Origin: a virus
IMG/VR virus record: IMGVR_UViG_3300009181_000270
Location: 1 to 28,605 of that record
Direction: 5' to 3' (one strand)
Length of the DNA: 28,605 nucleotides
Shown here: piece by piece, positions 2 through 18,659 of the stretch
Layout: every line of letters starts with the position of its first letter
Position numbering within the stretch: the first letter of the stretch is position 1
Program-made: the position numbers and the translations under genes
The notes under the pieces: generated by a model
What the model was told of the DNA's origin: nothing
The model's database searches: none
What the model saw: the letters and a program-made list of their open reading frames with translations, nothing else

Positions 2-2452
2 TTTGTAGATACATCAGGACCAGGATTTATTCAAGTAGATGGAGGTTTAAGATATAATCCTAACCAAGATCTATTAACAACTACCTCCTCATACACTCTT
101 CTAGCAAATACTGCTTCTTACGTGCAAAATGCACAAACAGCTTCATATGTTGTAAATGCTATAAGTGCTTCATATGTAAACTTAGCCCAAACAGCTTCAT
201 ATTTTAGTGGAAGTATATCTAATGCAACAAATGCAACAACGGCATCATATGTTCAAACAGCACAAACGGCATCATATGTTAATCCATTAACCCAAAATGT
301 TGTAGTTACAGGTTCATTAAATGTAACAGCTGATATTACGGGATCTGGATTACAAATTACAGGTTCAACATCAGTAGATCTAGTTAGAATTACACAAACC
401 GGAGCGGGTAACGCATTTGTGGTAGAAGATTCTACTAACCCTGATTCAACACCATTTGTAGTAAGTAATGCAGGTAATGTTGCTATTGGTATAACATCCC
501 CATCTAGACTATTACACACCTCAGGATCGGCCAATGTTACGTCAGTGCCGTTATTTGAGGGTATGGCAAGTAGTGAAACTAGATTTTTAACAATAAAAAG
601 AACCGATAGTACTGCAGAAGCCTTTATTAATTATACTGGAGTTGATTTAGCATTTGGTGCTAATGGTGTAGAAAGACTTAGAATTGGAAGATATGGTGAT
701 ATTGCTATTGGAACTGCTGTAAGTGCACCAGGTGCTAGATTATATTTAACAGGTAATGACGATGGAAATATTATCCGAACAACCCCATTATTAATAGCAT
801 CAGCATCATCAAACACAGATTTAGTTAGATTTACTCAAACAGGAACAGGTAATTCGTTTGTAGTTGAAGATACAAATACACCAGATTCTAGTCAATTTGT
901 AATTAATAATGTAGGTGATGTTAGTATTGGAAATACTACTCCTAATGCTAAACTAGATGTAAATGGTAATACTATTATTACAGGTTCATTAACAGTAACC
1001 GGTAGTATAAATTCATATGATAATATAACGTTATTACAAAACGCAACATATTTACAAGGAAAAAATTCAAGCAACGTAACAACTAGAATGATGGGTATCA
1101 ACTCGTCAAATATATTATATATAGGTTCTGTAGATGCTGCGGTAGGTTCAATATTCTTTAACATTAATGGATCTAATTTAATGCAAATATCATCCTCTGG
1201 AGATGTTGGTATAGGTAAATCGAATCCAACAGCTAGATTAGATGTAAATGGTAACACTATAATTACCGGATCATTGAATGTAACTCAAGGTATTACTGGT
1301 TCTGCATTACTAATTACCGGTTCTACTACAACCGATTTGGTTAGAATTACACAAACAGGTACGGGTAATGCTTTTGTAGTCGAAGACTCAACAAACCCAG
1401 ATTCAACTCCATTTGTAATTGATAATGCCGGCAATGTTGGGATTGGTACAACTACTCCAATAACTAAACTAGATGTGAATGGCGCACTACATATCAGGTA
1501 TACCGGAAGTAATGAGAATTACTTTTATCAATCTAACGGCGCCTTTGGCTATGGTAAAATGACTCCATTTAATAGTAATGGACAATTTGCATTTGACACA
1601 TATTATAGTAGTTCAGTATTACCAAGTGGATTTGTATTCTCATATAGCGGATCATCTCCGTTATTTTTCATATCAGGATCTGGAAATGTTGGTATAGCTA
1701 AATCTACAAATTTAAATGCTAAATTAGATGTATTAGGTAGTGCTATTATCACAGGTTCATTGAATGTAACAGCAGGTATTACAGGTTCGTTATTAGGAAC
1801 TGCAACAACGGCTTCATATGTTCAAACAGCACAAACGGCATCATATGTTAATCCATTAACCCAAGATGTTGTAGTTACAGGTTCATTGAATGTAACCCAA
1901 AATATAACAGGTTCTCGATTATTATTATCAGCGTCAACTGGAACTAATAGTGGATCTGTGTTAACAGTATATGGATCTGGATCTGCACAACCAGTATTCA
2001 CTGTACAAGGTTCACAGGGAGAATTATTCTCAGTTACTGATTCATTGTCGGGATCATTATTCTCAGTTAATGATATTTCCGGATTGCCAATATTAGAAGT
2101 ATTTTCAGACAATACTACATTAATAGGTAGTTATCAAGATCCAATGTTGATAACAACTACAAAATTAGTAACAACTGCATCCGGTGCATTTACTATATAT
2201 AGTTTACCAACTGCTTCATATGATACAGCATTTTTTGAGTACTCAATTCGCTCTGGGTCAAATGCGAGAGCTGGGTCTATAATGGCTATACAAAGTGCAT
2301 CTGCGGTTAATTTTACAGAAACAACTACAACAGATTTTGGTTCAACCGCTGGTTTAGCATTTACTGTTTTAATTTCTGGATCAAATATGTTATTAACAGG
2401 TTCTGCAACAACATCGGGATGGACTTTAAAAACGATAATAAGAAGTATATAA
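2..2452 (+). CDS. Repetitive tail fibre / adhesin protein, 5' end outside the window
   Basis: The frame is open from base 2 with no stop, so the gene begins upstream; the GTG at 122 is internal. The visible 816 residues are low-complexity, Ser/Thr/Asn/Gly-rich and built from recurring units: TASYVQTAQTASYV stretches, VTGSLNVTxxITGS stretches, and a 38-residue unit (DLVRITQTGxGNxFVVED...PD...FV...G.V.IG) at nt 377-490, 818-931 and 1334-1447. Units of the GNVGIGTTTPxxKLDVNG kind are common in phage fibre and tailspike proteins, where they form elongated trimeric beta structures. No S74 chaperone or enzymatic domain is visible and the C-terminus simply ends. The next gene, a lectin-like protein, starts 3 nt after the stop, which suggests one adhesion operon. 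Function as a host-binding fibre is inferred from composition and context; the exact virion position is unknown. Confidence 0.75.
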   Translation, partial: FVDTSGPGFIQVDGGLRYNPNQDLLTTTSSYTLLANTASYVQNAQTASYVVNAISASYVNLAQTASYFSGSISNATNATTASYVQTAQTASYVNPLTQNVVVTGSLNVTADITGSGLQITGSTSVDLVRITQTGAGNAFVVEDSTNPDSTPFVVSNAGNVAIGITSPSRLLHTSGSANVTSVPLFEGMASSETRFLTIKRTDSTAEAFINYTGVDLAFGANGVERLRIGRYGDIAIGTAVSAPGARLYLTGNDDGNIIRTTPLLIASASSNTDLVRFTQTGTGNSFVVEDTNTPDSSQFVINNVGDVSIGNTTPNAKLDVNGNTIITGSLTVTGSINSYDNITLLQNATYLQGKNSSNVTTRMMGINSSNILYIGSVDAAVGSIFFNINGSNLMQISSSGDVGIGKSNPTARLDVNGNTIITGSLNVTQGITGSALLITGSTTTDLVRITQTGTGNAFVVEDSTNPDSTPFVIDNAGNVGIGTTTPITKLDVNGALHIRYTGSNENYFYQSNGAFGYGKMTPFNSNGQFAFDTYYSSSVLPSGFVFSYSGSSPLFFISGSGNVGIAKSTNLNAKLDVLGSAIITGSLNVTAGITGSLLGTATTASYVQTAQTASYVNPLTQDVVVTGSLNVTQNITGSRLLLSASTGTNSGSVLTVYGSGSAQPVFTVQGSQGELFSVTDSLSGSLFSVNDISGLPILEVFSDNTTLIGSYQDPMLITTTKLVTTASGAFTIYSLPTASYDTAFFEYSIRSGSNARAGSIMAIQSASAVNFTETTTTDFGSTAGLAFTVLISGSNMLLTGSATTSGWTLKTIIRSI
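232..327 (+). repeat. 96-nt near-identical direct repeat, copy A
   Basis: By eye, this differs at only about three positions from 1801-1896, exactly 1569 nt (523 codons) downstream in the same frame. It encodes TASYVQTAQTASYVNPLTQ followed by VVVTGSLNVT. Near-identity at the DNA level implies recent duplication or gene conversion. Confidence 0.8.
377..490 (+). repeat. 38-residue fibre module, copy 1
   Basis: In-frame 114-nt unit encoding DLVRITQTGxGNxFVVED...PDSTPFV...GNVAIG. It has the same length and phase as copies at 818, 1334 and 4134. Confidence 0.8.
818..931 (+). repeat. 38-residue fibre module, copy 2
   Basis: 114-nt in-frame unit encoding DLVRFTQTGTGNSFVVED...PDSSQFV...GDVSIG. It is more diverged at the nucleotide level than copies 1 and 3. 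Confidence 0.8.
1334..1447 (+). repeat. 38-residue fibre module, copy 3
   Basis: 114-nt in-frame unit encoding DLVRITQTGTGNAFVVED...PDSTPFV...GNVGIG, very close to copy 1 in protein sequence. It is followed by a TTPxTKLDVNG linker. Confidence 0.8.
1801..1896 (+). repeat. 96-nt near-identical direct repeat, copy B
   Basis: Partner of 232-327, in the same reading frame. Recombination between the copies would delete or duplicate 523 residues of the fibre in frame. Confidence 0.8.
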
Positions 2453-2455
2453 GTT

Positions 2456-3124
2456 ATGGCATTTAATTATTCACCAAAAATAGTAACTGATGGTCTAGTA
2501 TTATGTCTAGATGCAGCTAATACTAAATCATATGTTAGTGGATCTAGTACGTGGACAGATATTAGTAAAAATAGAAATAATGGAACATTAATTAATGGCC
2601 CAACATTTAATAGTGGTAATGGTGGCTCAATTGTGTTTGATGGAACAAATGCACACGTAACAACAACCTTTAATACACAATTAACAAATTTTACAGTATG
2701 TTTATGGTTTAGACCAACAGATTCAACAAACCCAACTTATGCAAGATTATTAGATAAAAATTATGGTGGTGGTTTTTGGTTAGGAAAAGGTACTTCTACA
2801 AATAGTTGGGGAGGTGGTGTTTTAGAAGGATCTTCACCATTTGGTAGGTATTTGACTTTAACAGATGGCCAATGGAATTTTTTAGTTTCAATCAGATCAG
2901 GAATAACACATACATTGTATGGAAATGGAATTACTAATACAACGAGTGGTACTGTATCTTCAAACGCATTAGATACTACAAATTTAATGATTGCTAGGTA
3001 TATTGACGGTGGAGGATATAATTTTAAAGGAAATATATCACAAACCTCAATTTACAACCGAGCACTCTCCGCATCCGAAGTACTTCAAAACTTCAATGCA
3101 ACCAGAGCACGTTTCGGAATCTAA
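2456..3124 (+). CDS. Concanavalin A / laminin-G-like lectin-fold protein
   Basis: A 222-aa protein with the hallmarks of the LamG/ConA-like jelly-roll family (Laminin_G_3 type). It opens with GLVLCLDAANxxSY...WTDIS, continues with NNGTLINGPTFN...GGSIVFDGT, then FTVCLWFRP, a DGQWNFLV strand and a NGI..TTSG turn, and ends with the typical closing strand GNISQTSIYNRALSASEVLQ. Such domains bind carbohydrate or protein and are common on phage tail and fibre proteins. There is no signal peptide or membrane segment. It starts 3 nt after the fibre stop, so it is probably translationally coupled and likely a fibre accessory or receptor-binding subunit. The fold assignment is strong; the ligand and virion location are inferred. 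Confidence 0.78.
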   Translation: MAFNYSPKIVTDGLVLCLDAANTKSYVSGSSTWTDISKNRNNGTLINGPTFNSGNGGSIVFDGTNAHVTTTFNTQLTNFTVCLWFRPTDSTNPTYARLLDKNYGGGFWLGKGTSTNSWGGGVLEGSSPFGRYLTLTDGQWNFLVSIRSGITHTLYGNGITNTTSGTVSSNALDTTNLMIARYIDGGGYNFKGNISQTSIYNRALSASEVLQNFNATRARFGI

Positions 3125-3126
3125 TC

Positions 3127-3143
3127 ATATTTATATATAAATA
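3127..3143 (+). promoter_or_regulatory. AT-rich promoter-like element before second fibre gene
   Basis: ATATTTAT (3127-3134) is followed at once by TATAAATA (3136-3143), which equals the T4 late-promoter core. It lies 30 nt upstream of the ATG at 3174 in an otherwise short intergenic gap. Promoter activity is inferred. Confidence 0.45.
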
Positions 3144-3173
3144 ATAAACCCATAACTTGGATAGGGAAAAGGA

Positions 3174-4724
3174 ATGGCAAACGAATTCATAATAAAGAAT
3201 GGATACTTCTCACAAGGAAGTTCTAACATCACAGGTTCGCTTAATGTAACTGCGGGTATTACCGGATCATTGTTCGGAACTGCATCTTGGGCACAAAATG
3301 CCATAACCGCATCTTTTATAACAACAGCACAAACTGCATCTACTATTATATCAGAAAGAAATATTACTAATGCTAATTTTTTCCCGACATTTGTAGATTC
3401 GAATAACAATCCATTTGCAGCAGAACGATTATATACTAGTACTATAACATATAATCCTGCATTAAATTCGATGACATTAGGTAGTGTAACTGCATCGTTA
3501 TTAGGAACTGCGTCATCTGCTGCATCTGCATCATATGCAATAACAGCATCAAATGCTACTGGTTTAAGCACATTAAACCAAAACGTTGTTATATCTGGTT
3601 CACTAGGTGTAACCGGTTCATTAGTTGTATCTAATACATCAGCTTCAGTAACATACACTGCTATAAATACTATAAATAATGTAATTCAAAAGGTTGATAC
3701 AACCCTTAATCCAACAGCAATTAACGTGATTGATTGGAACCTTGAAACATTAAACACATATGATTTCTCAAACGATAGTGAGTATACTACCGTCGATTGG
3801 AATAATAGAATTTTATATACACCAGGAACACCATATGGTGTTAACAGAGAAACAGTCGATTGGGGTAATCGGAATTTAAAATACAATAAAACTACTTTAG
3901 GAGGTACACCATCGATGTCAATTGATTGGGGTGCTGGGACATTGAATAATACTAACGGTTCAACTGCATTGCAATGGAATACGCCAGGAATATTAACAGT
4001 AACCGGATCATTGATAATTTCTGGATCTGCTACAGCATTAAACGTAGTTGGTAATACTACGATAACAGGATCATTAAACGTAACACAAAATATTACTGGT
4101 TCTGGATTACTGATAACAGGTTCAACCTCAACCGATTTAGTTAGAATAACACAAACAGGAACAGGTAATGCATTTGTTGTAGAAGATTCCACAACACCAG
4201 ATACATCTAAATTTGTTATAGATGCGTCTGGTTATGTCGGTATTGGTGGTGGTATCGATCCAACATATAAATTATATGTTAATAGTAGCGAAACATGTAT
4301 ATTTGGACAAAGTTCTTTTAATAATGGAGTTCAAGGTAATGGTCTTATAGGGGTTGTTGGCGATGGTGCGACTACTGGTGTTCAAGGTAATGGCATATCA
4401 GTTGGTGTTGAAGGTAATGCTGGTCAAACGGATGAGTTTGGTGTTATATCTGAGGGTATTGGAGGTAAGTTTGCCGCTAATACCAATTATGGATCATTTC
4501 CTGCATATTCAGTACAATTACAAGACACTACTGAAGGTATTGGTAAAGTATTAGTATCACAAACATCAGATGGTAAAGCAAATTGGTCAACCAAATTATC
4601 CGGGGCATATGAAATAACAGGTTCATTAGCAATATCTGGATCAGTAAAATCACAATCATGCAATACTATATCTAGTGATGCATTATTACAAGCAACACTG
4701 TTATATTTATCTAACAATTTTTAA
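3174..4724 (+). CDS. Second repetitive tail fibre protein
   Basis: A 516-aa protein of the same architecture as the upstream fibre. It has an N-terminal NEFIIKNGYFSQGSSNITGS lead-in, then GSLNVTAGITGSLFGTA and TASYAITASNA-type stretches. A unique segment at about residues 160-260 repeats a D-W-(N/G)-x-R/G pattern (IDWNLETLN, VDWNNRILY, VDWGNRNLK, IDWGAGTLN). Next comes one 38-residue LVRITQTG module, then a glycine-rich GVQGNGL...GVQGNGI...GVEGNAG region (about residues 385-415) and an ITGSLAISGSVKSQS tail. A purine-rich GGGAAAAGGA just upstream supports the start. The C-terminal stretch lacks a recognisable chaperone or lectin domain. Structural fibre is well supported; which receptor it binds is unknown. 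Confidence 0.72.
   Translation: MANEFIIKNGYFSQGSSNITGSLNVTAGITGSLFGTASWAQNAITASFITTAQTASTIISERNITNANFFPTFVDSNNNPFAAERLYTSTITYNPALNSMTLGSVTASLLGTASSAASASYAITASNATGLSTLNQNVVISGSLGVTGSLVVSNTSASVTYTAINTINNVIQKVDTTLNPTAINVIDWNLETLNTYDFSNDSEYTTVDWNNRILYTPGTPYGVNRETVDWGNRNLKYNKTTLGGTPSMSIDWGAGTLNNTNGSTALQWNTPGILTVTGSLIISGSATALNVVGNTTITGSLNVTQNITGSGLLITGSTSTDLVRITQTGTGNAFVVEDSTTPDTSKFVIDASGYVGIGGGIDPTYKLYVNSSETCIFGQSSFNNGVQGNGLIGVVGDGATTGVQGNGISVGVEGNAGQTDEFGVISEGIGGKFAANTNYGSFPAYSVQLQDTTEGIGKVLVSQTSDGKANWSTKLSGAYEITGSLAISGSVKSQSCNTISSDALLQATLLYLSNNF
4134..4247 (+). repeat. 38-residue fibre module, copy 4 (second fibre gene)
   Basis: 114-nt in-frame unit encoding DLVRITQTGTGNAFVVED...PDTSKFV...GYVGIG. 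It is the same module as in the first fibre gene, about 2.7 kb away, showing module exchange between genes. Confidence 0.8.
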
Positions 4725-6642: not shown

Positions 6643-9108
6643 ATGGCAGAAAGAATAATATCGCCGGGTGTATTTACGAATGAAGTAGATCAATCGTTTT
6701 TAGCTGGTGGTGTAGCACAATTAGGGGCGGCAATTGTCGGACCAACAGTTAAAGGTCCAGCACTTGTACCAACTAAAATAACATCGTGGGGAGAATTCAC
6801 ACAAAAATTCGGATCATATACAGATGATTCATATGTTCCATATGTAGTTCAAGACTATTTAAGAAATGGAAATGTAATCACAGTAACTCGTCTTTTATAT
6901 GAAGATGGATATAAATTAACAAATGGGGCAATGGCAATCGTTGCAACATCAGCATCAGTTAGCAGAGTAACTCACGTATTGCACCCAACACAGGCAATTA
7001 CAACAACAGGAGCATCAGCGGTATTTGAAGATTCAGTTCTTTTAGATGCAGGCTCAGGTTCATTTGCAATTAAAATTTCTGGTTCATATGCAGTACCAAC
7101 TGGTACCGATGCAAATGCAATTGGATATTCAGGAGCATTCCTAGTAGCAGAAGGCGTTGCAATTTCAGGTTCAGTTGTAGAATCGAGTAACAAGTATGTT
7201 AACAAAGTTTTTGGAGCATCACCAAAATCTGTTGATTATCCAGTATATGTACAATATGAAGATAAAACTGCAACTTCAGCATTTAATAACATAGGCAATG
7301 TTACATTATCATTAGTTAAATATTCTAACTATGAATTTATACAAGATTATAACACAGCAGCAACACCTTATATAACATCACAAAAAATTGGAAGTGTTAC
7401 TAAAGATTTATTTAGATTCCATACATTATCACATGGTACATCAGTAAATCATGAAGTTAAAATTGGTATTTTTGATGTTAGAACATCTAACGAAGTTACC
7501 GATCCAAATGGATATGGTACTTTTAGTGTAGAGGTACGTAGAGTTAATACATCAAATATTGTTAATTCTCCATATTCATCTCAAGATACAGATAAAACAC
7601 CAGATACAGTTGAGATATTTCAAAATGTAAATTTAGATCCAACATCTCCTAGATACATTGTAAATTTAATTGGTGATCGTTATCAAACAGTAACAGATGC
7701 TAATGATTTAGTAGTAAATGGTGATTATCCAAATAAATCTAAATTCATTCGCGTAGAAGTAACAGACGCTGTGAAATATGGTACAAATGAAAAATCATTG
7801 ATACCATTTGGATTTAGAGCATTAACATCTCCAATACCAAATGCGGGTGCTGCTAACTTAACTGGTGCTACATATGTAACAACCCAAGTTCAAACAACAT
7901 ATAGCGCTAAAAATTATTTTGGATTTGATTTTAATAATACAACAAATTTAAATTATTTAGCACCATTACCATCATCAGGATCAACAACTGGTAGCAATGT
8001 AGATTTTTATTTAGGCAATATTAATCAAGATGCAGCAGCAGCATTCCCATCATCGACAGCACCTTACTCTGGTTCAGTTGAATCTGCATTAATAGGTGGT
8101 ACATTTACTGATAACATTTCTTCATATACTCGTAAATTCATAGTACCATTCCAAGGTGGATTTGATGGAACTCGTCCAAACTTACCAAAATATTCAGGTA
8201 AATGGATTGCAAATACAAATGCATTCGGATTTGATTGTGCAACTAGTACATCGACAGGTACTAAAGCATATAACAAAGCATTTACATTGTTAAGTAACAC
8301 TGATTATTATGATATGAATATGATTGTTACACCTGGTATATTGAATAGTAAACATAGTGCGGTAACATCATTAGCAATTAATCTAGCAGAAACTCGTCAA
8401 GATACATTTTATGTAATGGATTCAAACGGATTAGAAGATCCAATCTCAACAGTTGTTTCTGACACTGCTACATTAGATAGCAGTTACACAGCAGCATATT
8501 GGCCATGGGTTCGTATTGTTAATCCTTCTAAAAATGTTCCTGTTTGGGTACCACCGAGCGTTGTATTGCCGGGTGTATTAGCATTTAATGATAAAATTGG
8601 AGCTCCATGGTATGCACCTGCTGGTTTAACTCGTGGTGGTTTAACTACAGTATCTGATACATATATTAACTTATCACAAGCAATGCGTGATACATTGTAT
8701 GAAGCTCGTATTAATCCTATTGCGAACTTACCTAATGAAGGAGTAGTGGTTTGGGGTCAAAAGACATTACAAGCTAGACCAAGTGCATTAGACCGAGTGT
8801 CAGTGCGCCGTTTGTTGCTAGAACTTAAAAAATTCATTGCATCATCTACACGTTATTTGGTATTCGAACAAAACACAGATCGAACTAGAAATATTTTCTT
8901 ATCAATCGTTAATCCATATATGGAAACAGTAAAAACGAAACAAGGTTTATATGCGTTTAGAGTAGTAATGGATTCGACGAATAATACACCAGATGTTATT
9001 GATAGAAATATTTTATACGGTCAGATTTTCTTGCAACCAACAAGAACAGCTGAGTTTATTGTATTAGATTTCAATATTCAACCAACCGGAGCACAATTTC
9101 CAGGATAA
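6643..9108 (+). CDS. Contractile tail sheath protein
   Basis: An 821-aa protein of the T4 gp18-like tail sheath family, the subunit that polymerises around the tube and contracts on infection. The N-terminus has the family signature ISPGVFTNEVD followed by AIVGPTVKGPA, ITSWGEFTQKFGS and VVQDYLRNG. The C-terminal sheath domain is clear at about residues 680-821: EARINPIANLPNEGVVVWGQ, TLQARPSALDRVSVRRLLLE, FVFEQN-like YLVFEQNTDRTR, and AEFIVLDFNIQPTGAQ at the end. It is longer than T4 gp18 (about 660 aa); the extra length falls in the variable middle (about 120-480), where surface domains are inserted in other sheaths. It has a strong AAAGGAG ribosome site and is followed by a terminator, so it can be transcribed as a single high-level unit. 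Confidence 0.95.
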   Translation: MAERIISPGVFTNEVDQSFLAGGVAQLGAAIVGPTVKGPALVPTKITSWGEFTQKFGSYTDDSYVPYVVQDYLRNGNVITVTRLLYEDGYKLTNGAMAIVATSASVSRVTHVLHPTQAITTTGASAVFEDSVLLDAGSGSFAIKISGSYAVPTGTDANAIGYSGAFLVAEGVAISGSVVESSNKYVNKVFGASPKSVDYPVYVQYEDKTATSAFNNIGNVTLSLVKYSNYEFIQDYNTAATPYITSQKIGSVTKDLFRFHTLSHGTSVNHEVKIGIFDVRTSNEVTDPNGYGTFSVEVRRVNTSNIVNSPYSSQDTDKTPDTVEIFQNVNLDPTSPRYIVNLIGDRYQTVTDANDLVVNGDYPNKSKFIRVEVTDAVKYGTNEKSLIPFGFRALTSPIPNAGAANLTGATYVTTQVQTTYSAKNYFGFDFNNTTNLNYLAPLPSSGSTTGSNVDFYLGNINQDAAAAFPSSTAPYSGSVESALIGGTFTDNISSYTRKFIVPFQGGFDGTRPNLPKYSGKWIANTNAFGFDCATSTSTGTKAYNKAFTLLSNTDYYDMNMIVTPGILNSKHSAVTSLAINLAETRQDTFYVMDSNGLEDPISTVVSDTATLDSSYTAAYWPWVRIVNPSKNVPVWVPPSVVLPGVLAFNDKIGAPWYAPAGLTRGGLTTVSDTYINLSQAMRDTLYEARINPIANLPNEGVVVWGQKTLQARPSALDRVSVRRLLLELKKFIASSTRYLVFEQNTDRTRNIFLSIVNPYMETVKTKQGLYAFRVVMDSTNNTPDVIDRNILYGQIFLQPTRTAEFIVLDFNIQPTGAQFPG

Positions 9109-9123
9109 TAATTAACTAAAAAT

Positions 9124-9151
9124 AAAGGTGAGATTAGTTCTCACCTTTTTT
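9124..9151 (+). terminator. Rho-independent terminator after sheath gene
   Basis: Perfect 10-bp stem AAAGGTGAGA / TCTCACCTTT with a 5-nt loop (TTAGT), followed by a run of T. It sits 16 nt past the sheath stop. Confidence 0.9.
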
Positions 9152-9191: not shown

Positions 9192-9719
9192 ATGGCATTA
9201 GAAAATTTAATATCTGGCTCATATGTGGATCAAGCTGGTATGTTCGGGAATGCATACAGCTGGGAACCAAAAAAGCAACATCAATTTGTTTTGTCAGTAA
9301 ATAACAGCGGGGTAAATATACCATCATATTTAATTAAAGCATCAGGTAAACCACAATTAACTCAAGGTGAAGTTACTTTAGATTACATAAATGTACAACG
9401 ATATGTGAAAGGTAAATCTAATTGGAATGCTTTATCAATAACATTGTATGATGCAATTGTCCCATCTGGTGCACAAGCAGTAATGCAATGGATAATGCAG
9501 CACCACGAATCGCATACTGGTAGAGATGGTTATTCTACATATTATAAAAAAGAATTATTATTGCAACAATTATCACCATTAGGTGAAATTATTGAACAGT
9601 GGAAATTAAATGGTGCTTGGATAACTGATTCAAACTGGGGTTCATTGGATTGGAGCACAGAAGATGTTGTTACTATTGAATTATCGATTCGATATGATTG
9701 GGCACAATTAAGCTTCTAA
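9192..9719 (+). CDS. Tail tube protein, T4 gp19-like
   Basis: A 175-aa protein matching the T4 gp19-like tail tube family in length and pattern. It has an N-terminal NAYSWEPKKQHQFVLSV strand, a SYLIKASGKPQLTQGEVTLD core with YINVQRYVKGKSNWNALSIT, and a C-terminal EIIEQWKLNGAWITDSNWG followed by DVVTIELSIRYDWAQL, as expected for the stacked hexameric tube. It lies right after the sheath, the standard gene order. A terminator precedes and another follows, making it a one-gene unit with its own promoter-like element, consistent with a need for many copies. Confidence 0.93.
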   Translation: MALENLISGSYVDQAGMFGNAYSWEPKKQHQFVLSVNNSGVNIPSYLIKASGKPQLTQGEVTLDYINVQRYVKGKSNWNALSITLYDAIVPSGAQAVMQWIMQHHESHTGRDGYSTYYKKELLLQQLSPLGEIIEQWKLNGAWITDSNWGSLDWSTEDVVTIELSIRYDWAQLSF

Positions 9720-9740: not shown

Positions 9741-9769
9741 AATGGGGGACTAAATATCTCCCATTTTTT
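9741..9769 (+). terminator. Rho-independent terminator after tail tube gene
   Basis: Nine-pair stem AATGGGGGA / TCTCCCATT with one G-U pair and a 7-nt loop, followed by six T. It lies 22 nt past the tube stop. Confidence 0.88.
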
Positions 9770-9813: not shown

Positions 9814-10581
9814 ATGACACAGATGACAGATCGTGTATCAAATCAAAAAATCGTAGAATTAGCAAAACAACAATACGAATCACAAAAAAGAAGTAAATTA
9901 CCAACAGTTATTGTGAATTTACCAAGTCAAGGAAAAATTTATCCAGAAACACATCCATTGCGTAGTGGTCAAATTGAAATGCGATATATGACTGCATATG
10001 ATGAGGATATTTTAACTAATCCATCATATATTGATAACGGGGTTGTATTTGATAAATTATTAGAATCTATAATCACAACACCAGTAGCAGTTGCAGATAT
10101 TAAAACTTCTGATAAAGATTCATTAATAATTAATGCTAGAATATTAGCATATGGTGTCGAATATCCTGTAAAAGTTACTGATCCTAATACTAAAAAGTCA
10201 ATTGACCGTACTTTGATATTATCTAGATTGCAAAATAAACCGTTTGACTTACAATCTAATGAAAATGGAGAATTTGAATATGAATTTAATAATAACGGAA
10301 CAGATGTCGTATTAAAATTCATTTATATTAATAAAGATATCAATGAAATAACAATTTCAGAATTTTTATCAGCTACAATTACAGAAGTAAATGGTAATAG
10401 AGATAAAACAGATATTGAAAATTTTATACGATATGAATTTTTATCGAAAAATGCAAAAGAATTTAGAAAATACATTGCAGCTAATCTTCCTGGTTTGGAT
10501 ATGACATATGAATTCGAAGGTGAAGATGGGAGCACCTTCAAATCTACATTTCCCATTGGAACAGACCTTTTTTGGTTTTAG
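9814..10581 (+). CDS. T4 gp26-like baseplate / tail-assembly protein (likely chaperone G analogue)
   Basis: A 255-aa protein of the T4 gp26-like baseplate family. The signature is VNLPSQGKIYPETHPL, then GQIEMRYMTAYDEDILTNPS, a VFDKLLESII segment, a KDSLIINARILAYGVEY helix, and the C-terminal FPIGTDLFWF. In T4, gp26 is classed as a baseplate hub component and its gene is followed by 51. Here it sits between tail tube and tape measure, exactly where tail-assembly chaperone genes lie in other phages. It ends in TTT TAG, and an overlapping +1 frame continues for 70 more codons, so a 325-aa frameshift product is plausible. Shine-Dalgarno AAAAGGAG precedes the ATG. Family call is strong; the chaperone role is inferred from position. 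Confidence 0.85.
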   Translation: MTQMTDRVSNQKIVELAKQQYESQKRSKLPTVIVNLPSQGKIYPETHPLRSGQIEMRYMTAYDEDILTNPSYIDNGVVFDKLLESIITTPVAVADIKTSDKDSLIINARILAYGVEYPVKVTDPNTKKSIDRTLILSRLQNKPFDLQSNENGEFEYEFNNNGTDVVLKFIYINKDINEITISEFLSATITEVNGNRDKTDIENFIRYEFLSKNAKEFRKYIAANLPGLDMTYEFEGEDGSTFKSTFPIGTDLFWF

Positions 10582-10792
10582 TCCACCTGATCGCATACAC
10601 TTACATGATTCTTTATTTAAATTAATTTGGTTTGGTGAAGGTAGATGGGACTGGGAAACTGTGTATAATTTACCAATATTTATTCGTAAATTTTATGCAA
10701 ACAAAGTAAATGAGATTTTAGAAGCCAAAGCAGAAGTTGCAGAAAAGCAAACTGAGGCATTATCAAAAAAATCTAGTAGAAAATCTAGATAA
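10505..10792 (+). CDS. gp51-like extension in +1 frame (probable frameshift product of gp26-like gene)
   Basis: A reading frame in +1 phase relative to the gp26-like gene; the stop that opens it is at 10502-10504. The residues encoded beyond the upstream stop look like real protein: SPPDRIHLHDSLFKLIWFGE, then GRWDWETVYNLPIFIRKFYA and a basic, Lys/Ser-rich helical tail. This resembles the W-x-x-x-Y-N-L-P-I-x-x-R segment of T4-like gp51/hub-assembly proteins. Residues read before the overlap end appear to be mere translation of gp26 codons out of frame. Two routes are possible: +1 slippage at TTT TAG (10576-10581), or independent initiation at ATG 10526, which has GAAGG about 5 nt upstream. I favour the frameshift but cannot exclude the second. 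Stop TAA at 10790-10792. Confidence 0.7.
   Translation, partial: HMNSKVKMGAPSNLHFPLEQTFFGFSPPDRIHLHDSLFKLIWFGEGRWDWETVYNLPIFIRKFYANKVNEILEAKAEVAEKQTEALSKKSSRKSR
10576..10582 (+). promoter_or_regulatory. Candidate +1 programmed frameshift site TTT TAG T
   Basis: Phe codon TTT (10576-10578) precedes the in-frame stop TAG (10579-10581). Shifting +1 lets the same tRNA re-pair with TTT at 10577-10579, giving AGT as next codon and continuing into the gp51-like frame. P-site slippage with a slow stop codon in the A site is the mechanism known for RF2 and for phage SPP1 and PSA +1 shifts. Inference from sequence only. Confidence 0.55.
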
Positions 10793-10821: not shown

Positions 10822-12597
10822 ATGCATACTAAAACAGAACAACATCGATTAATTCGTTATCTTAAATCTAAGCCTAAACATGGTGTTTTTGATTTAGTGG
10901 CACTATTAACTAAATCCTTAACTGCTGCTACCGCATTCAATGACAACTTAACAGCCGTAAAAACGAATTCTGTACAGGCACTAACTGGGTTAGATAAATT
11001 AGCTGGTGCTAATGAAGTATTATTAAATCGATATAAAGACTTAACCGAAGCTTCATTAAAACTTGAGTTACGAAATAAAGCAATTAATGATTCATTTGGC
11101 GTCTCAACAGCAACTGCAGCTAAATTGTCAGCTGCATTTTATACTGTAGCAAAAGAATTAGGTATAACAGGTAAACAGATGCAGGCTTATGGTGCTGGTA
11201 TTAAGAATATAGTACCAACATTAAATCAAGCAGCTGTTAAAAATAAAACATATTATAAAGGATTAATTTCAGTACAACGTGTATTAACTACCAATTTGAA
11301 ATTAACATCAGCACAAGCAGAAGAATATTCATACTATGCATCTCAGCAAGGAGAATCGGCTGCTATGACACTAAAAGCAACTGAAACATTAACAGGGGCA
11401 TTAGATCCATCAGGTACGATGGGGTTATTTAAAGTAGTTACAGCTGGTATTGCAAAAGCAGGTGCTACTATACAATTACAATATGGTAAAATACCGGGTA
11501 ATTTAGAAATGGCAGTACTCAAAGCTCATACATTGGGTCTTGAAATGAAAGATTTACAATCAATATCTGATAATCTATTAAATATTGAAAGTAGCATAGG
11601 GGATGAATTAGAATACCAATTATTATCAGGTCGTCGATTAGTTGGCGATGAAAAAGCACAATTAGATCTTCAAGGCAAAAGTTTAACTAATGCATATCGA
11701 ATGGCAACATTACAACGAGATGGTAATAAACAAGCAGATATTTTAAATACAATATTAACTCAAGAAGGAGGTCAATTAGAAACTAACTTGTTAGCACGTC
11801 AACAAATGTCTAAATTATTAGGTATTGATGAAATGCAATTATCTCGAGCAATTCAAAAGAAAAAAATACTAGAAAAATCTGGAGCTGAAATATTATTTAA
11901 TGTAAAAGGCGATGATTTAATTAGACAAGCAAAAGCTCTAGTTGATACTGGTAAAATGACTGATGAGGGCTTTAAAGAATTGATGTCACTAGAAGATACT
12001 AGAACTACTGACGAAACATTAGGTGAGATATTACAGGTTAATCAAGAATCTGCATTAACACAAATGTTGATATATGATCAAATAAATACAATTGCTCAAG
12101 CCTCTAGCAATGTTAAAACATCTGCAGCAAATATTAAGTTAATAGAATATGTAAAATCTGAAATGGAAGATTTAGGAGGTGCTTTGTTAACAAAACGTAT
12201 GACGGAAATGAGTGCAGCTGATCTCGCAAAACAAATGTCAGAGAACACAGGTGGTTCACCAACGGGTATGGAAGAGGCACAAATACAAGGTGTTAATAGT
12301 CAACACGAAGATGCATTAATGATTAATGATGGTGTAGTAAAATTCAATCCACGTGATAAATTTATGCGAGTTAATGATAGCACTATGATTGCTGGAACAA
12401 ATGTTGATGGTAATAGACAATTAGCAAGATCTATTAATAGTTCTAATTCAGCAATGACAAGTGCGCAAATATCACAATTAGTTCAAGCATTTACCGCAGT
12501 TGGTAACATGATGAAAGATGCAATAGATTCACAAACCTCAGCTCTTAAACGAGACAATTTATTTGCACCTGGTATTAATAGAGGAACATGGGCATAA
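10822..12597 (+). CDS. Putative tail tape measure protein
   Basis: A 591-aa, Ala/Thr/Leu/Lys-rich, largely helical protein. Residues about 20-130 are long amphipathic helices (DLVALLTKSLTAATAFNDNL, ...). A middle region resembles tape measure or tail-length proteins of uncultivated myoviruses: QADILNTILTQEGGQLETNL, LARQQMSKLLGIDEMQLSRA, IQKKKILEKSG. The C-terminal part has PRDKFMRVNDSTMIAGT, a short beta-rich element often found at tape measure ends, and a final helix NSAMTSAQISQLVQAFTAVG. There are no obvious lytic or membrane domains. Position downstream of tube and gp26/gp51-like genes and upstream of baseplate genes matches T4 gene 29. If tail length scales as in other phages, the tail is shorter than one measured by a long ruler. 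The ATG at 10822 lacks a clear Shine-Dalgarno site, so the exact start is uncertain. Confidence 0.7.
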   Translation: MHTKTEQHRLIRYLKSKPKHGVFDLVALLTKSLTAATAFNDNLTAVKTNSVQALTGLDKLAGANEVLLNRYKDLTEASLKLELRNKAINDSFGVSTATAAKLSAAFYTVAKELGITGKQMQAYGAGIKNIVPTLNQAAVKNKTYYKGLISVQRVLTTNLKLTSAQAEEYSYYASQQGESAAMTLKATETLTGALDPSGTMGLFKVVTAGIAKAGATIQLQYGKIPGNLEMAVLKAHTLGLEMKDLQSISDNLLNIESSIGDELEYQLLSGRRLVGDEKAQLDLQGKSLTNAYRMATLQRDGNKQADILNTILTQEGGQLETNLLARQQMSKLLGIDEMQLSRAIQKKKILEKSGAEILFNVKGDDLIRQAKALVDTGKMTDEGFKELMSLEDTRTTDETLGEILQVNQESALTQMLIYDQINTIAQASSNVKTSAANIKLIEYVKSEMEDLGGALLTKRMTEMSAADLAKQMSENTGGSPTGMEEAQIQGVNSQHEDALMINDGVVKFNPRDKFMRVNDSTMIAGTNVDGNRQLARSINSSNSAMTSAQISQLVQAFTAVGNMMKDAIDSQTSALKRDNLFAPGINRGTWA

Positions 12598-17333: not shown

Positions 17334-18659
17334 ATGGTAGTAGATGATTTAACAGATTTAAATGCATTATTTACATATATACATGATCGTAAAACATTAA
17401 TAGTCCCGGTATTAGCAGATCCTAATTTGCATGTATCACAAAATAATGTGTCGTGTATATATGTTTATACTGAGGATGGTGTAGAACGAATAGTACCTAT
17501 CCGCCATACTGAACAACTTATATCCTTTTCCGAACATCTAAGCAGATTCCTAGAGTTATCAAGTGTCTTTGTGTATGACAAGAAACAATGGCTACAGTTG
17601 GGCGGAAACAATACCGTATGGGATATTAAGACACTTTGGTGGTATACTTACGGAGAAGCCTATGATGAAACTCATTATTATACCACAGCTCATACATTTT
17701 ATTGGAGACGTCATCAAACACTGAACAATGTTAATGCACTTGTTCCATTAATGCAACATTTAGCAATGTGTCAGAAAATACGAAAGTATGCTTGGCCAAT
17801 GTGTATAAATTCTAAATTAACAAAATCATATTTACAGTTCAATGAGTTATATCCAGAAACGTTTGCTGCAATTGAACGAAACGGATTGCATGTAACTTCA
17901 GAATTTAAATTGCCTGATTTGATTCATAGCAATACGCGAGTTTATAGTAATTATCATTATCATACCACAACTGGTAGACCTAGTAATGCATATCGAGGAT
18001 TCAACTTTGCTGCAATGAACAAAGAAGATGGAACCCGTGATGCATTTTGTAGCAGACACGATCACGGTGCTTTGGTTGAAATGGATTTTGATGCCTACCA
18101 CGTAAGACTGATTGCTAGATTAATTGGTTATAATTTACCAAATGGATCTGTGCATGAATATTTTGGTAGATTTTATTTCGATACAACTGCATTATCAGAA
18201 GAACAGTATGATCAGGCAAAACAAATAACATTCCGGTTATTGTATGGAGGGATTGATTCTGAATTTTTATCAATTCCATTTTTTAAACAAGTAAATGATT
18301 TTATTTATGATTTGTGGCGACAATGGAAAGCCAATGGATTTATTAAAACACCGATATTGCATCGTACAATTAGTTCTGATACTATAAAAAACATGACAGC
18401 AAATAAATTATTCAATTATTATTTACAGTCAGTAGAAACAGAAGTATCAGTGCAAAAATTACAACAAGTTCAACAAATATTAACCGATACACAAACATGT
18501 ATGATTTTATACACGTATGATTCAATTTTATTTGATGTCCCATTAACAGAAGCTCGAGAAATTTTACCTAAGATTAAGACTATCCTAGAGTCGGGTAATT
18601 TTCCGGTTAAAGTTAAAGTAGGGGATATTTATAGTAAAATGAATATTATATCGTTATGA
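17334..18659 (+). CDS. Divergent family A DNA polymerase, reduced and probably exonuclease-deficient
   Basis: A 441-aa protein carrying recognisable Pol I-family motifs in the right order. TTTGRPSNAYRGFNF matches Pol I TATGRLSS...QN. Motif A MDFDAYHVRLIARL keeps the catalytic Asp, but the Pol I Glu that follows it is His. Motif B YDQAKQITFRLLYGG keeps Lys, Phe, Tyr and Gly; the Pol I Arg754 position is Tyr. Motif C YTYDSILFDV has the second catalytic Asp (Pol I HDE becomes YDS). The N-terminal about 190 residues sit where the 3'-5' exonuclease domain would be; stretches PVLADPN, VYDKKQWLQLG and WDIKTLWWYTYG align loosely with exo motifs, but the DxE acidic pair is missing. There is no 5'-nuclease domain. 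It is small for a replicative enzyme. Stop overlaps the next start (ATGA). Confidence 0.8.
   Translation: MVVDDLTDLNALFTYIHDRKTLIVPVLADPNLHVSQNNVSCIYVYTEDGVERIVPIRHTEQLISFSEHLSRFLELSSVFVYDKKQWLQLGGNNTVWDIKTLWWYTYGEAYDETHYYTTAHTFYWRRHQTLNNVNALVPLMQHLAMCQKIRKYAWPMCINSKLTKSYLQFNELYPETFAAIERNGLHVTSEFKLPDLIHSNTRVYSNYHYHTTTGRPSNAYRGFNFAAMNKEDGTRDAFCSRHDHGALVEMDFDAYHVRLIARLIGYNLPNGSVHEYFGRFYFDTTALSEEQYDQAKQITFRLLYGGIDSEFLSIPFFKQVNDFIYDLWRQWKANGFIKTPILHRTISSDTIKNMTANKLFNYYLQSVETEVSVQKLQQVQQILTDTQTCMILYTYDSILFDVPLTEAREILPKIKTILESGNFPVKVKVGDIYSKMNIISL

Follow-up and report, generated by a model that had tools for sequence, protein, structure and literature searches.

The window, i.e. the whole stretch of DNA analysed here, is a 28,605-base IMG/VR record, possibly incomplete and representing a fragment. 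On its + strand, a tail sheath gene (6643..9108; PF04984/PF17482, phrog_23 3e-66) and a gp19-like tail tube gene (9192..9719; phrog_4542 5.5e-29) precede a gp26-like ORF of 255 codons (9814..10581). This ORF sits between the tail tube gene and a 591-aa tape-measure candidate (10822..12597, + strand), assigned by position. The candidate had no family match in profile searches, and the gene occupying its slot in Flavobacterium phage immuto is annotated as tape measure. The gp26-like ORF terminates in ...GAC CTT TTT TGG TTT TAG, of which TTT TAG, the end of the short product, is at 10576..10581. From 10508, no stop interrupts the +1 frame before a TAA at 10790-10792; the frame runs for 70 codons past the gp26 stop, starting with SPPD and containing WDWETVYNLPI. 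Its first later start codon is a GTG located 82 nt beyond that stop. If the +1 frame were entered at the motif CTT TTT TGG (10567..10575, + strand), the extension, or T (TAC-C) domain, would span 10574..10792 (72 codons plus TAA), and the predicted fused product would be 325 aa long. A previous sequence-only reading of the window had pointed to this 70-codon extension and to the lack of a good downstream start. Both observations are confirmed, and the downstream protein is conserved.

Terminator-like hairpins are present at 9124-9148 and 9741-9765, on either side of the tail tube gene, so that gp26 may start its own transcription unit. Shortly after the tail module, a 441-aa protein (17334-18659) has a partial match to family A DNA polymerases (PF00476, 1.2e-10), and long fibre-like proteins with repeated TASYV and ITGSLNVT motifs are encoded at 122-4724. 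A host search through genome contigs found no relative.

The gp26-like ORF matched PF12322 (T4_baseplate, 2.7e-7, 30.9 bits vs a curated cut-off of 24.5) and phrog_150 (1e-7). An AlphaFold model of the short form (mean pLDDT 89.8) was compared with BFVD and matched gp26 and baseplate hub proteins, the named match being the baseplate hub subunit of Bacillus phage SP-15 (E 6e-13, TM about 0.7). Against the PDB, the two best VIA-align chains were 3klu (YqbN; Z 5.9, rmsd 3.7, 81 aligned residues) and 2ob9 (the HK97 tail assembly chaperone; Z 5.7, rmsd 3.0, 74 aligned residues), both with Z below 8 and both aligned over gp26 residues 29-114, the next chain being at Z 2.6. This likeness of the predicted fold to solved tail-assembly chaperones is suggestive. 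Foldseek found nothing significant in the PDB, the HK97 chaperone being ranked third with an E of 1.4, and the gp26 profile had no significant match among the sequences of solved structures. The T domain of the window matched no family in Pfam and PHROGs. The T4 proteins gp26 and gp51 belong to the same Pfam and PHROG families, and gp51 also covers the T part of the profile in PHROG. With hhalign, the T domains of T4-like phages in which this frame is in phase -1 (see below) aligned with the gp51 C-terminus at an E of 5e-10. Alignments of the window's T domain were more modest, with an E of 3.6e-5 against the -1 group and 0.018 directly against T4 gp51. Judged from these comparisons, the gene is very probably a G/GT-type chaperone.

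We collected a first set of 80 relatives, with 54-76% identity, and the downstream domain was in the +1 frame in all of them. The nearest named phages were Flavobacterium phage immuto and Microcystis phage Mel-JY01 (~34% identity). With these two phages and another two members as seeds, wider searches brought the number of usable loci to 378: 218 were window-like, 95 immuto-like and 64 Mel-like, and one came from a jumbo phage. Among these, 200 were non-redundant, and three lineages were distinguished. The conserved downstream domain was in phase +1 in 378/378 loci. Given this constant phase and the conservation of the downstream protein, the overlap of the two frames is not due to chance. The sequence-only reading had proposed that a +1 programmed frameshift at TTT TAG joins gp26 to the T domain in the tube-to-tape-measure slot. 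Alignment of relatives supports the phase but not the site, as the TTT-TAG overlap is not conserved: the frameshift is very probably real, though placed elsewhere.

The element shared by the relatives lies in the T-run just upstream, and reads NTT-[TC]TN-TGG (10567-10575 in the window), the third codon, which would occupy the A site, being rarely TAC or TTC instead of TGG. At one or both of the two codons preceding TGG, a Phe or Leu tRNA could re-pair in +1 in 200/200 loci. In the window's lineage, the motif codons were CTT in 62/62 loci, TTT in 87/88 and TGG in 90/90. Synonymous choice was essentially fixed at CTT (62/62, for a usage of 9%), at GAC (63/65) and at TTT (87/88). The stop codon is always two codons from the start of TGG in this lineage. 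Among the immuto and Mel loci examined, CCT followed the motif in 109/109, and stops were found 3-6 codons from the start of TGG.

These distributions bear on where, and in which direction, ribosomes would slip. A +1 slip exactly at TTT TAG, with slow termination as the driver, is improbable. In the window, TTT followed by T does permit re-pairing, and TTT or CTT precedes the stop in 75/90 loci of the lineage, but 15/90 have neither codon there, and in the sister lineages the stop is 3-6 codons past the start of TGG, which is followed by CCT rather than TTT. We therefore rejected TTT TAG as a general slip site. Slippage by -2 at the T-run would lead into the same frame and give a product one residue longer (...DLFFGF...). 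It would be compatible with re-pairing in 196/200 loci, fewer than the +1 slip, which fits all 200. Standard pairing is impossible at TTT CTA (loci L084, L100, L111 and L122), and at TTT CTT a first-position G-U pair is required; among immuto-type loci, CTT occurs in 26/64 and CTA in 3/64. This makes a -2 slip unlikely. A -1 slip was rejected, as it gives the wrong phase and its heptamer is avoided: a T immediately 5' of the motif was found in 2/199 loci vs about 37% T at wobble sites, which indicates avoidance of T TTT TTT, the -1 heptamer that this T would form with a first codon TTT. Further upstream, at 10549-10551 (codon -24), a TTT followed by C, and often preceded by GGG, is nearly invariant among window-like loci (TTT in 90/90). 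This TTT might serve as another +1 slip site, or else belong to the RNA element upstream of the motif.

In E. coli prfB, a Shine-Dalgarno (SD) sequence is placed 3 nt upstream of the slip site. No such sequence was conserved 3 nt upstream of the slip motif among the loci of the lineages compared. A hairpin of 7 bp was found in the window's lineage, at 10516..10539 (+ strand), 27 nt 5' of the slip motif, farther upstream than known SD-type stimulators. It is formed by GAAGGTG and CACCTTC, separated by a 10-nt, purine-rich, SD-like loop (AAGATGGGAG), and is unique within the window. All seven pairs were present in 81/90 loci, vs 7.7% upon synonymous resampling, and compensatory changes were observed (e.g. 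GGC/GCC, AGT/ACT). The last five bases of the loop are all purines (GGGAG, GGAGG, GGGGA and others). Synonymous choice 5' of the motif is extreme in this lineage, with GGT in 86/89 loci (usage 34%), AGC in 45/45 (10%), ACC in 80/83 (8%) and TTC in 67/90 (18%). Taken alone, the thermodynamic z-score of the hairpin is modest (-1.95). In the sister lineages, RNAalifold found no hairpin, and biased purine codons occur ~25-40 nt 5' of the motif (AGG in 15/16 Mel-like loci, GGG in immuto-like loci). A search of the region against Rfam gave no match, save a sub-threshold chance hit on the opposite strand. The stem of the terminator-like hairpin at 9124-9148 (AAAGGTGAG/CTCACCTTT) is similar to that of the frameshift hairpin.

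The loop also contains an ATG in the +1 frame (10526..10528, + strand), placed after GAAGG, and the sequence-only reading had named it as an alternative start. The T domain would then be a separate protein, whose SD and start codon, both held within the hairpin, would become exposed by translation of gp26. In the window this start is indeed well formed (GAAGG-5 nt-ATG). In addition, +1 stops between -33 and -6 are depleted in the window's lineage, where they were observed in 2 loci vs 44 expected from synonymous resampling. Most of this deficit is explained by the codon at -18, which ends in A or G in 0/90 loci; this bias could be due to a different constraint on the RNA, or to a certain amount of +1 translation begun at ATG 10526. 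From codon counts, the ATG is present in only about 61/90 loci of the lineage, and in two of its members (L040 and L059) the +1 frame is closed by a stop 3' of the ATG position, with no other start codon between that stop and the conserved domain. These two belong to a group of 34 non-redundant loci, with 15 immuto-like and 17 Mel-like ones, in which none of ATG, GTG and TTG occurs in the +1 frame between its last upstream stop and the slip motif, so that a separate start is unavailable. Moreover, 5' of the motif the sister lineages show selection in frame 0 only: in immuto and Mel loci, the freest position there is the frame-0 wobble (up to 1.7 bits), and beyond the motif it is the +1 wobble. 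Such a switch marks the motif as the point where one coding frame gives way to the other. An independent start as the source of the T domain is thus quite unlikely, being impossible in some relatives. Given the depletion of +1 stops and the ATG present in about 61/90 loci, a minor additional product initiated at ATG 10526 may nevertheless be made in the window. Transcriptional slippage, with RNA polymerase omitting one U at the T-run, is highly improbable: a T6 or T7 run does exist in the window and many relatives, but 29/64 immuto-type loci read TTTCTTTGG or TTTCTATGG, with T runs of at most 3 and an unchanged phase.

We thus favour +1 programmed frameshifting, by which one gene would give both a short chaperone (gp26/G/TAC-N, 255 aa) and a longer GT/TAC-NC form (about 325 aa), and we estimate the probability of this reading, built on comparison of sequences, at about 0.88. 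The slip would take place while the P site holds CTT or TTT and the A site holds TGG, a codon that would be filled slowly: the tRNA for Leu or Phe would move one base 3' onto UUU, and reading would go on in the +1 frame (GGT TTT AGT CCA...), while in the window ribosomes that do not slip would stop two codons on. Slippage is probably stimulated by the purine-looped hairpin on the 5' side, which might, for instance, fold again once the ribosome has passed. If the chaperone works as in λ, the tape measure protein would be coated by many copies of the short form and few of the long one, and these would also bring in the subunits of the tail tube.

The λ pair gpG/gpGT likewise consists of a short and a frameshift-extended chaperone encoded in the slot before the tape measure gene, but the shift is -1 (PMC5009743) and not +1 as here. 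A 2016 review made T4 an exception to G-T frameshifting (PMC5009743). T4-like chaperones were identified in 2022 by Vladimirov, Gautam and Davidson (Virology 566:9-15), according to later papers that cite this work (PMC10885494, PMC12846349). As these papers report it, the chaperones are made by -1 frameshift or, in T4, from separate genes 26 and 51; some T4-like phages have a short gene and a fused long gene in place of a frameshift (PMC10885494), and T4-like TAC-N genes are cited as carrying poly-T signals for a -1 shift (PMC12846349). The proposal of the sequence-only reading that gp26/gp51 are the myovirus form of G/GT agrees with our sequence comparisons, but it was already in print. Its parallel with SPP1 does not hold, since the putative shift behind 17.5/17.5* goes in the -1 direction, at UUUUUUC, and it is the tail tube gene 17.1 that has the +1 shift of SPP1, at CCCUAA (PMC6316719).

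T4-like chaperone genes share with the window a gp26-type short form, the tube-to-tape-measure slot and a T-rich slip site, and probably also the T domain (the gp51 C-terminus). They differ in direction: the T frame was in phase -1 in the nine named T4-like phages checked (including P-SSM2, HTVC008M, phiM7, nt-1, Sf-FP1 and Desulfovibrio 7757), several of which would slip on T TTT TTC or T TTT TTT, and T4 itself uses two genes (26 and 51) and no shift. In the lineages described here the shift would be +1, on YTT YTN TGG, with an added hairpin in the window's lineage. The T preceding the motif, avoided here, is common in phages of the -1 phase (GAT TTT TTC, AGT TTT TTT).

For the +1 direction, E. 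coli prfB offers a parallel in mechanism, as its P-site tRNA also re-pairs on an overlapping codon with a first-position wobble, from CUU to UUU (PMC5009743); the A site contains a stop codon in prfB, and UGG here. The bypassing of T4 gene 60, in which 50 nt are skipped rather than one base, also involves a stem-loop on the 5' side of its recoding site, and this structure has been proposed to push the ribosome forward (PMC5009743). By its description, the G-T gene of Halorubrum myovirus HSTV-2 is another myovirus tail chaperone with a very likely +1 shift (PMC5009743), in an archaeal virus, unlike the window's virus of bacteria.

Since T4-like chaperones and poly-T -1 signals were already known, the contribution of the present analysis is a large +1 lineage with a hairpin. 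Judged against the 2022 work as others cite it, what seems new is the +1 direction, together with the hairpin and the large clade of uncultured viruses. A tentative scenario, which we consider possible rather than probable, is that the +1 slip is driven by the hairpin, with its SD-like loop of purines, folding again in the wake of the ribosome. It would then be a natural one-base counterpart of the gene 60 stem-loop, and would have evolved as this T4-like lineage adopted a +1 shift at a T-run comparable to the one on which its relatives shift by -1. Depending on the lineage, the homologous tail-chaperone gene of T4-like phages would be read with a -1 shift, a +1 shift, or no shift and a duplicated gene, and these opposite directions offer a clean system for studying how frameshift direction evolves. 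With several hundred loci, there is also a natural collection of variant +1 sites that lack an A-site stop codon, together with a candidate 5' RNA stimulator.

A practical consequence concerns annotation, as public records miss the T domain or give it a wrong start. In the record of phage immuto (NC_055915.1, locus L083, 4723-5000), the T domain is unannotated; its frame has no ATG, and the sole start is a TTG 5' of the slip site. In Mel-JY01 (PP395634.1, locus L082, 4809-5045), it is annotated as a separate gene with a TTG start within the end of gp26. Among Kyanoviridae, the records of HTVC008M (L088, 16366-16503) and P-SSM2 (L387, 1623-1796) list a "gp51 baseplate hub assembly catalyst" as a short ORF of its own. 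In both phages the frame of this ORF extends back into the end of gp26 at T TTT TTT or T TTT TTC, a sequence arrangement consistent with a -1 frameshift.
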